Notes under the pieces: generated by a model
Seen by the model: only the letters and a program-made list of their open reading frames with translations
The model's database searches: none
Told to the model about the DNA's origin: nothing
Position numbers and translations under genes: made by a program
Part shown: piece by piece, positions 15,044-18,364 of the stretch
Position numbering within the stretch: position 1 is the first letter of the stretch
Layout: each line of letters opens with the position of its first letter
Assembly (NCBI GenBank): GCA_018333955.1
Contig: JAGXSD010000013.1
Location: forward strand, 1 to 44,962
Origin: Erysipelotrichia bacterium
GTDB taxonomy: Bacteria > Bacillota_I > Bacilli_A > Erysipelotrichales > Erysipelotrichaceae
DNA: 44,962 nucleotides
Reading direction: 5' to 3'

Positions 15044-15997
15044 ATGGAATATTCAAATCGATGTACGATGAGGAAACTAACAGAATACTTTAAGTTTGAA
15101 CAACTTTGTGGAAACAATCAAGCCCTTGATCGTTGGGTTGTGGTGCCTGATTTAAACCGTCCAGGGCTTGAACTCTCAGGATTTTTTGAACATACTGAGC
15201 CACGACGTATCGTCGTGCTTGGGGACAAAGAAATGGCGTATATTCAAACCATGGGGGCAGAACATCAACGCTATGTGTTTGAAAAACTCACTGATGGATG
15301 GACACCCTCCATTATCATCACACGCTCTCATGAGTGTCCGCCCATTCTTATGGAAGTAGCCCAAGCCAAAAACTTTCCTATCTTTAGAACAACTCTTAAA
15401 ACCTATCAACTCATGGTGGATGTCATCTCATACCTCGATGAACAACTCTCAGAGTCTGATACGATCCATGGAGTTTTGATGAGTGTTTATGGTAAAGGAG
15501 TGCTAATTACTGGGGAATCAGGCATGGGGAAATCGGAATTAGGACTAGAACTCATTCGTAAAGGTCATGTCTTAATTGCGGATGATCGTGTTGATGTGCG
15601 ACGAATTCATAATACGATTTATGGTTCTGCTCCAGAATTGCTAAAAGGATACTTAGAATTACGAGGGATTGGTATTATTGATATTGAGCGCATGTTTGGC
15701 GCGAGTTCAATGCTAGATACCATGAGAATTGACTTTGTGGTGTACCTAGAGAAATGGCAAGATGGTAAAGCCTATAAACGGGTATCCATGGATTCTCAGT
15801 TTAGTATGCCTATTCTTGGGATTGACATTCCTAAGATGGTTTTTCCAGTCAAAGAAGGTCGTAACTTATCCGTACTCATTGAAGCAGCGGTCACTGACTT
15901 TACACTTAAAGAAAAAGGCATCGATGCCGCGAAATCATTTGATGATCGTGTTTATGATTATATAGTCCAACAAAACCAAGAACAAGGAAGGGAGTAA
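15044..15997 (+). CDS. hprK: HPr kinase/phosphorylase
   Basis: HprK phosphorylates Ser46 of HPr using ATP or pyrophosphate and reverses this by phosphorolysis, which releases pyrophosphate; this drives carbon catabolite control in Bacillota. The C-terminal catalytic domain has Walker A GESGMGKSE (about 157-165), the conserved His142 before it, the ADDRVDV segment, and the HprK signature LELRGIGIIDI (about 204-214). The 317 residues are normal. AGGAGG precedes the ATG. The next gene carries a fused phosphatase that probably removes the pyrophosphate made here. Confidence 0.96.
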   Translation: MEYSNRCTMRKLTEYFKFEQLCGNNQALDRWVVVPDLNRPGLELSGFFEHTEPRRIVVLGDKEMAYIQTMGAEHQRYVFEKLTDGWTPSIIITRSHECPPILMEVAQAKNFPIFRTTLKTYQLMVDVISYLDEQLSESDTIHGVLMSVYGKGVLITGESGMGKSELGLELIRKGHVLIADDRVDVRRIHNTIYGSAPELLKGYLELRGIGIIDIERMFGASSMLDTMRIDFVVYLEKWQDGKAYKRVSMDSQFSMPILGIDIPKMVFPVKEGRNLSVLIEAAVTDFTLKEKGIDAAKSFDDRVYDYIVQQNQEQGRE

Positions 15998-16001
15998 GAA
16001 T

Positions 16002-17459
16002 ATGCAGTTATTTCCAAATCCATCCACTATTATTGAAATCGGCGGTTTCGCAATTCGATGGTATGCGGTGTTGATATTATCAGGAGCGTTTATTGCCTAT
16101 GCGCTCACACTTAAAGAAGCTAAGAAAATGGGGTATGATGCGACCTTACTGGATGATTTATTCTTTGGCGCATTAATCTCTGGGGTTATTGGATCTCGTT
16201 TATGGTATGTCGCTTTTTCAGATGACTTAGCAGGTTATCTTGCGAATCCTATCCGTATTGTGGCTACCTGGGAAGGTGGCTTAGCCATCCAAGGTGGTTT
16301 ACTGCTTGGAGTACTTTATGGTTACTTCTGGGTTAAAAAGCGAAAAATCGACTTCTTACGTCTGGCGGACGCGGCTGTACCAACCATCATGATTGCGCAA
16401 GCCTTAGGTCGTTGGGGAAACTTTGCGAATCAAGAAGCCTTTGGACGTATTGTGGATCCTTCCTTTTACAACGGCTGGCCAACATGGTTTGCGAATCATA
16501 TGCTTATTGGAGGATCCTATCGTGAACCCACATTCCTTTATGAGTCCATGGGAAATATCTTAGGCTATATAATCATCATTTATCTTTACAAACGATTCAC
16601 ACAAGTAAAACGTGGGGATATGGTGTATGCATACTTAATGTGGTATGGTGTACTACGTTTCTTTGTGGAAGGTTTACGTAGTGATAGTTTAATGTTTATG
16701 GGATTAAGAAGTGCTCAATTGGTGTCGATTGCTTTTGTGATCATTGGAGTTTTAGGAACATTAGGCGTATTTAGAAAACTATTTCCAAAACAAAAACCGG
16801 TTATTCTATTTGATTTTGATGGGACTGTGATGGATACAGAACCTGCGGTTATCGCGACCTATGAGAAACTCTATGAGAATCATAAGTTAAGTCATATGAT
16901 GACACCTGAATTTAAGAAAACACTCATGGGTCCACCATTAAAAGAAATCTTTGCCTTGCATTTTGATCAAGCCATGATTGATGATCTTGTTCATGAATAT
17001 CGTGCCATTAACTTAGAACTACATAAAACACATGTGAAGCCATTTGAAGGGGTTAAAGAAGTCTTAACATCATTAAAGAATCAAGGATATCGTCTTGGGG
17101 TAGTCTCTTCAAAACATTCTGATTCGATTGAGTACGCCCTTTCGATGTATGAGATGAATGATTTATTTGAAGTCATCATTGGATTAAATCATGTGACTCA
17201 TCATAAACCTCATAAAGAAGCAATTGAGAAAGCATGTAAAGCTCTAGGTGTAGGGCATGATTCACTTATTTATGTGGGCGATACAGTAGTGGATATCAAT
17301 ACCGCCACCAATATTGGGGCTTATGCGGTAGCCTATATCTCGAATGAAGATCGCTTAGAAGCAATTAAAGCACTTAAACCTAATGCGATGATATCTCATT
17401 GGAGTGAGTTTGAAACTATTTTGAAGGAGGATGTTGAATGGACGCGCAGTACGATTTAA
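16002..17459 (+). CDS. lgt: Fusion: prolipoprotein diacylglyceryl transferase (Lgt) + HAD phosphatase (PpaX-like)
   Basis: Residues 1-260 are Lgt, the membrane enzyme that puts diacylglycerol on lipobox Cys residues. The Lgt signature GRWGNFANQEAFG (136-148) is intact; the GG(x)4GG loop reads GGLAIQGG, with Gln97 where E. coli has His103. After about eight linker residues, 267-485 form a HAD hydrolase: DFDGTVMDT (Asp271, Asp273), VVSS (about 367-370), Lys402 and YVGDTVVDIN (Asp427, Asp431). Bacillus has separate hprK, lgt and ppaX genes in this order, and PpaX is a pyrophosphatase, so the fused half is probably PpaX. No stop or frameshift lies at the junction, near 16775-16800. The phosphatase should face the cytoplasm. 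Confidence 0.88.
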   Translation: MQLFPNPSTIIEIGGFAIRWYAVLILSGAFIAYALTLKEAKKMGYDATLLDDLFFGALISGVIGSRLWYVAFSDDLAGYLANPIRIVATWEGGLAIQGGLLLGVLYGYFWVKKRKIDFLRLADAAVPTIMIAQALGRWGNFANQEAFGRIVDPSFYNGWPTWFANHMLIGGSYREPTFLYESMGNILGYIIIIYLYKRFTQVKRGDMVYAYLMWYGVLRFFVEGLRSDSLMFMGLRSAQLVSIAFVIIGVLGTLGVFRKLFPKQKPVILFDFDGTVMDTEPAVIATYEKLYENHKLSHMMTPEFKKTLMGPPLKEIFALHFDQAMIDDLVHEYRAINLELHKTHVKPFEGVKEVLTSLKNQGYRLGVVSSKHSDSIEYALSMYEMNDLFEVIIGLNHVTHHKPHKEAIEKACKALGVGHDSLIYVGDTVVDINTATNIGAYAVAYISNEDRLEAIKALKPNAMISHWSEFETILKEDVEWTRSTI

Positions 17460-18364
17460 TCATCGTGGGAGCAGGCCCTGCAGGCCTCACAGCGGGCGTA
17501 TATGGGCCAAGAGCTGGCCTTAAAACCGCCATCTTAGAACCTGATGCTCCAGGGGGAAAACTTGTTAAGACCTATGAAATCGCAAATTGGCCAGGTCAAA
17601 AGTTAATCACTGGATATCAACTCGCCCTAGATATGTATGAACACGCCACTGAAACAGGAGTTGAATACTTGTATGGTCGTGTCAGCAAAATTGATAAAGT
17701 TGAGGACGTGTTTCATGTATTGTGTGAAGATGGATCACTCTATACATCAAAGACAGTGATGATTGCAAGTGGAACACTGGAGAAACAATTAGGTTTAGAG
17801 GGGGATGATACCCTTATTGGAAAAGGATTATCCTTTTGTGCTGTATGTGATGGCGCATTCTATCGACATCAACCTGTGAGTGTCATAGGTGGGGGAAACT
17901 CAGCATGTGAAGAATCCTTGTATCTAACAAAGTTTGCTTCTCAAGTTAATCTCATTGTGCGTCGTGATGTCTTTAGAGCTGAACCTCATATTCAAGATCA
18001 AGTCTTATCCAATCCCAAGATTAATGTGATTTGGCTTCATTCCCCAGTGGCGTATGTGGTGGAGAATGGACTGGTGACAGGACTAGAGATCAAATCCAAT
18101 GTGAATGGAGAAACCCAAGTTGTGCCCACTAAAGCCGTCTTTCCTTACATTGGTTCCACGCCAAATACCGCCTTTGTATCCCACTTAGGCATTACAAATA
18201 GTGATGGATACCTTATTGTGGATGAGAATATGAAAACCGCCATCCCAGGACTTTTTGGAGCAGGGGATGTATGTGCTAAGTTTTTAAGACAAATTGTCAC
18301 CGCCGCCAATGATGGGGCGGTTGCGGCTCAACAAGCTTTCCATTACATTAATTCAAAACACTAA
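17438..18364 (+). CDS. trxB: Thioredoxin-disulfide reductase
   Basis: TrxB is the flavoenzyme that passes electrons from NADPH to thioredoxin. The 308 residues contain the FAD motif GAGPAG (11-16), the redox pair CAVC (Cys134, Cys137), the NADPH motif GGGNSA (151-156) with RRDVFRA, and the C-terminal GAGDV FAD motif. The start overlaps the end of the Lgt fusion by 22 bases and has GGAGG upstream. It is the last gene of the ctp operon; a strong terminator follows. Confidence 0.95.
   Translation: MDAQYDLIIVGAGPAGLTAGVYGPRAGLKTAILEPDAPGGKLVKTYEIANWPGQKLITGYQLALDMYEHATETGVEYLYGRVSKIDKVEDVFHVLCEDGSLYTSKTVMIASGTLEKQLGLEGDDTLIGKGLSFCAVCDGAFYRHQPVSVIGGGNSACEESLYLTKFASQVNLIVRRDVFRAEPHIQDQVLSNPKINVIWLHSPVAYVVENGLVTGLEIKSNVNGETQVVPTKAVFPYIGSTPNTAFVSHLGITNSDGYLIVDENMKTAIPGLFGAGDVCAKFLRQIVTAANDGAVAAQQAFHYINSKH

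Follow-up and report, generated by a model that had tools for sequence, protein, structure and literature searches.

In the window, the whole 44,962-nucleotide stretch of Erysipelotrichia DNA analysed here, one uninterrupted reading frame beside hprK joins prolipoprotein diacylglyceryl transferase (Lgt) to a HAD phosphatase. The fusion is real and old. On sequence evidence, it is best explained as a single membrane polypeptide carrying two separable enzymes, to which we assign a probability of roughly 0.6: an N-terminal half that would be a working Lgt (covered by the same joint estimate), with its active site outside the cell, and a C-terminal, cytosolic HAD phosphatase whose probable ancestor is the hprK-operon PpaX gene, a neighbour of lgt. 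The new part of the result is the reciprocal decay of the two halves.

One open frame joins Lgt and a HAD phosphatase

The first-pass annotation had described an uninterrupted frame holding a complete Lgt and a complete HAD phosphatase with all four HAD motifs, and this is borne out by the open reading frame, the Pfam matches and the catalytic residues. The window sequence contains no internal stop codon between positions 16002 and 17459, which encode 485 amino acids. The features are as follows.

15044..15997, + strand: hprK, HPr kinase/phosphorylase (TIGR00679, 351 bits; Hpr_kinase_N/C), directly upstream of the fusion
16002..17459, + strand: Lgt-HAD fusion ORF, 485 aa, uninterrupted frame, Pfam LGT and HAD_2, open in relatives
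16002..16781, + strand: Lgt domain, residues 1-260 (TIGR00544, catalytic residues, Foldseek match to E. coli Lgt 5azb)
16407..16448, + strand: Lgt signature motif GRWGNFANQEAFGR, residues 136-149, matching E. coli R143/N146/E151/G154
16644..16679, + strand: Lgt motif YGVLRFFVEGLR, residues 215-226, corresponding to E. coli Y235, R239, E243 and R246
16782..16799, + strand: linker, residues 261-266, between the Lgt and HAD domains
16800..17456, + strand: PpaX-derived HAD phosphatase domain, residues 267-485 (HAD_2; best NCBIfam model PpaX)
16812..16826, + strand: HAD motif I DFDGT, residues 271-275 (D271, D273, T275), Asp pair and Thr unchanged in every fusion examined
17106..17111, + strand: HAD motif II Ser, residues 369-370 (S369/S370), from sequence
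17205..17207, + strand: HAD motif III Lys402, invariant
17277..17294, + strand: HAD motif IV GDTVVD, residues 426-431 (GD427xxxD431), both Asp invariant
17438..18364, + strand: trxB (thioredoxin reductase-like), named by gene order and sequence motifs, the same neighbour in separate-gene relatives

The operon is tightly packed, since hprK ends 4 nt upstream of the fusion and the trxB start overlaps the final 22 nt of the fusion. Its order is uvrB-uvrA-hprK-[lgt-HAD]-trxB-rapZ-yvcK-whiA, in which hprK was identified by family scans and the remaining genes were named by sequence motifs and gene order. At three g8 loci (L088, L089 and L090), a TrxB-like ORF was not found between the fusion and rapZ, the usual place of trxB.

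A frameshift or assembly error at the junction was looked for and excluded, because congeners (79-84% identity) and most genera of the family carry the same open frame. We therefore consider it extremely improbable that the frame is a sequencing or assembly error, for which no support was found, or that the protein is cleaved into two parts in vivo: the frame recurs in about 49 genera, and the 71 fusion ORFs from the window's own family have linkers of 3-14 residues without a conserved internal start. The junction in the window is itself short (about 6-8 residues), and fusions from the other families have linkers of 14-29 residues. The window linker has no in-frame ATG, and across the family's fusions the junction shows neither a conserved start position nor a conserved ribosome site. 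A free HAD made from an internal start was rejected on these grounds.

The Lgt half retains most essential residues

The Pfam LGT match (E 9e-66) spans residues 10-251, and residues 5-256 pass the TIGR00544 equivalog cut-off (204.4 vs 118.9 bits). The window Lgt retains counterparts of E. coli R143, N146, E151, G154, Y235, R239, E243 and R246; the roles of the GRWGNFANQEAFGR residues (R143/N146/E151/G154) and the essentiality of those in YGVLRFFVEGLR are known from E. coli (PMC4728403). Canonical fusions likewise have R143, N146, G154, Y235, R239, E243 and R246, with G154 altered in one. His103, in the HGGL motif, is likewise essential in E. coli Lgt, where H103Q fails (PMC4728403), and the window has Gln at this place (residue 97, 16290-16292). 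This substitution counts against a working Lgt, but it is tempered by the finding that Gln is also common at the His103 place in the fusions studied here and in unfused f2 Lgt, so His103 appears to be neither universal nor family-defining in this branch. LspA, the next enzyme of the lipoprotein pathway, is present in the genome.

Lgt has a cytoplasmic C-terminus and an active site that faces the periplasm, or outer face (PMC8048626, PMC4728403). Accordingly, the HAD domain should lie in the cytosol, on the opposite side from the Lgt site, and channelling between the two is unlikely. An AlphaFold2 model of the fusion, built from an 8-sequence input, was of moderate confidence (pLDDT 73.5, pTM 0.59), and Foldseek matched its halves to PGP-type HAD phosphatases and E. 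coli Lgt (5azb).

The HAD half is derived from PpaX

Residues 268-444 match Pfam HAD_2 (E 4e-48), and catalytic motifs I-IV are all present. Against the PpaX equivalog NF009804 the domain scores 148-151 bits, below the cut-off of 218, and this is still its best match among HAD models. The separate operon HADs of relatives (f7, f9, f13 and f2 g68) exceed the same cut-off (230-285 vs 218 bits). Location and descent agree with a PpaX origin, as seen in the hprK operon gene order, in the separate neighbours above the cut-off and in a HAD tree that is consistent with it, its backbone being weakly resolved. Thus, of the earlier description of the C-terminal half as PpaX-like, the origin from a neighbouring hprK-operon gene stands and full PpaX identity, at about 150 vs 218 bits, is not supported; the domain is best described from its sequence as PpaX-derived. 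By descent, pyrophosphate (PPi) is the leading candidate substrate, and the HAD half may have a substrate other than that of PpaX. The genome also carries a separate, soluble CBS-type DHH/DHHA2 pyrophosphatase.

The same annotation had placed hprK, lgt and ppaX in this order as separate genes in Bacillus. The order is correct, but lgt and ppaX are not immediate neighbours in B. subtilis, where yvoD lies between them (hprK-lgt-yvoD-yvoE(ppaX)-yvoF; PMC12345273).

The fusion is widespread in its family and probably arose more than once

In a sample of 316 genomes of the order, mostly metagenome-assembled, the full fusion was found in at least 49 of the 60 sampled genera of the window's own family. 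The earlier proposal that it may mark a lineage is thereby supported. Four further families of the class also have fusions, probably of separate origin. None was found outside the class among the matches listed from a 392-genome phylum sample, all of which fall within the class, so that this says little of other classes. No description of the fusion was found in the literature searched, a partial coverage with most subscription journals outside it.

Separate neighbours in the order hprK-lgt-HAD(ppaX)-trxB are present in f7, f9, f13 and f2 g68, and families f6, f8 and f11 each include both fused and separate forms. A concatenated Lgt+HAD tree requires at least four changes between the fused and separate states, and a single origin was rejected on this tree (AU p = 1.6e-72 for grouping all fusions in one clade, with an odd long branch for row L117). 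This suggests that adjacent genes fused several times, or that they both fused and split.

Several loci depart from the usual arrangement. Two f8 fusions (L104:5481-7466 and L105:2110-4095) have an extra N-terminal extension of ~160 aa ahead of the Lgt domain, and an unfused Lgt in a relative, L111, is extended in a similar way. Three f6 PpaX-like HADs (G394:C7:203113-203742, G572:C18:111135-111764 and G424:C15:136719-137363) lie inside open frames of 544-587 aa, which are probably further fusions. In three f2 genomes, a PpaX that exceeds the curated cut-off lies on a different contig from hprK (G003:C29:39192-39815, G023:C16:34361-34993 and G029:C133:33401-34024), so ppaX in these genomes has moved rather than been lost; an initial view that f2 had mostly lost the HAD was revised, as several f2 genomes have such a distant copy. 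Absences in G180, G184 and the B. subtilis control were left out of account, since B. subtilis gave no match even for its known lgt and hprK and parts of some genomes may be missing from the searched set. At L113:6394-10163 (G001), uvrA and hprK look broken into pieces, perhaps by sequencing errors.

Either half can decay

In g8, g18 and g36 of the window's own family, the fused ORF still lies beside hprK with intact HAD motifs and a catalytically degenerate Lgt half. These dead-Lgt fusions comprise 29 distinct proteins, in which N146, N149, E151, G154, Y235, E243 and usually R246 are missing, and R143 and R239 are often kept. They still match Pfam LGT, which cautions against calling Lgt by family membership alone. 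A separate full-length Lgt was found in 28 of 28 scanned genomes having a dead-Lgt fusion. This second Lgt belongs to another subfamily, and the eight examined meet or come near the curated Lgt cut-offs, save L068, whose genome has an intact fusion. The GCC-type Lgt appears to have replaced the fused one. One contig of G148 carries both an intact fusion and, ~10 kb away, a second, GCC-type Lgt (L117:5139-5918 and 15979-17439), possibly an intermediate before loss of the fused Lgt.

Dead Lgt halves have dN/dS of 0.03-0.30, vs 0.03-0.12 for their own HAD halves and 0.02-0.09 for canonical Lgt halves (Nei-Gojobori; values with dS > 1 are saturated, and the closest pairs alone are reliable). Across many g8 species, the dead-Lgt fusions are of near-constant length, mostly 448 aa in total. 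The dead half is relaxed but constrained, and probably functions as a membrane domain. Dead-Lgt forms occupy three lineages of the HAD tree, the backbone of which is weakly resolved. We give even odds to the fuller proposal that, on three independent occasions (g8, g18 and g36/g3), the Lgt half became a catalytically dead membrane domain that would anchor or regulate a PpaX-type phosphatase, lipoprotein modification having passed beforehand to a different Lgt.

Loss has also run in the other direction. In g48 and g51, Lgt is intact and the HAD is reduced to a ~100-aa remnant without DxDGT. Steps beyond the dead-Lgt forms are seen in a 409-aa form with unrecognisable Lgt (g3 G047), in a HAD alone at the same locus (g50 G265, L139; g3 G046, L142) and in the lack of a HAD at the locus in g24 and in g33, where it is near a contig end. 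Because related genera lost either half, the halves look functionally separable and not one coupled machine, and the Lgt fold seems sometimes to serve as a membrane anchor. The supposed tie of the phosphatase to lipoprotein synthesis is not required, as the hprK locus still holds the HAD in genomes with a dead or missing Lgt half.

Possible roles of the fusion

The first-pass annotation had suggested that the fusion tethers the phosphatase next to HprK. This would make it a membrane-tethered pyrophosphatase dedicated to HprK, removing the PPi produced by P-Ser-HPr dephosphorylation, with the tether positioning the HAD. A passage of PMC2937029 that cites Mijakovic 2002 reports the proposal that B. 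subtilis YvoE drives HprK toward dephosphorylation by such PPi removal. The fusion lies in an operon with hprK in most cases, and across 296 class genomes PpaX-like HAD and HprK occur together more often than by chance (without correction for ancestry, the odds ratio ranges from 3.9 to 18 depending on the threshold). However, HprK is a soluble enzyme, to which a membrane tether gives no clear proximity, and the window's genome has the separate DHH/DHHA2 pyrophosphatase. Three genomes carry the fusion without HprK (f6 G566, f8 G448 and f8 G466), and among the 296 genomes, 30-55 have the HAD without HprK and 43-53 HprK without the HAD (thresholds 1e-27 to 1e-40). The co-occurrence is loose, and these genomes weaken the case for a HAD dedicated to HprK, which we regard as unlikely.

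Persistence of the fusion without HprK would fit a substrate supplied by Lgt, which releases glycerol-1-phosphate (G1P; PMC8048626). HAD domains of the same group include small phosphate-ester phosphatases, and the HAD is joined directly to Lgt, as expected if it handled this by-product or another phosphate released from phosphatidylglycerol. Yet Lgt frees G1P at the outer face, across the membrane from the cytosolic HAD (PMC4728403, PMC8048626), so that recycling of G1P is unlikely on topology; moreover, the HAD is kept where the fused Lgt is dead, and its ancestry is PpaX. We consider this role very unlikely. A neutral accident, in which one stop codon was lost in the operon with no functional consequence and the fusion was kept since re-splitting is rare, has a small chance of being the whole explanation. 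The fused or separate state of adjacent co-directional genes changed several times, both states occur within f6, f8 and f11, and either half decays reciprocally, all consistent with such an accident, but the g8 dead Lgt half, with its near-constant protein length and purifying selection, is unlike a purely neutral passenger.

We thus favour a polypeptide of two separable enzymes. The stop between lgt and the ppaX-type gene would have been lost in the family ancestor, as the tree suggests; substrate passage between the halves is probably absent; and the activity most likely retained by the HAD is hydrolysis of pyrophosphate or a small phosphate ester on the inner side of the membrane. In the long term, the fusion would provide a membrane anchor and hold the HAD at a constant 1:1 ratio with Lgt; this anchor was apparently retained in some cases after loss of Lgt activity and discarded in others. 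Counting against this explanation, the fact that nearly 50 genera keep the fusion could point to a coupled function that is invisible in sequence.

The fusion is both a lineage marker and a natural experiment, in which species with one dead half bear on the purpose of the membrane tether. Automatic naming would probably show Lgt only and hide the second enzyme family-wide, because, of the curated models shown, the fusion passes the NCBI one for Lgt but none of the phosphatase equivalogs.

Comparison with known systems

With Lgt (TIGR00544, PF01790; E. coli 5AZB/5AZC), the window protein shares the full domain, the signature motif and most essential residues; it differs from the E. coli enzyme in its C-terminal cytosolic HAD enzyme and in Gln97 at the His103 place. 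The GCC-type stand-alone Lgt of g8, g18, g36 and g3 (nearest NCBIfam NF000778) is also a full-length Lgt family member, but of another subfamily, with the NxxNxE region replaced, unfused and away from hprK. With PpaX/YvoE of the Bacillus hprK operon (NF009804), the window protein shares the operon, the HAD motifs and the best-matching model, whereas it differs in its sub-cut-off score and in its fusion to a membrane protein, and its pyrophosphate hydrolysis is putative.
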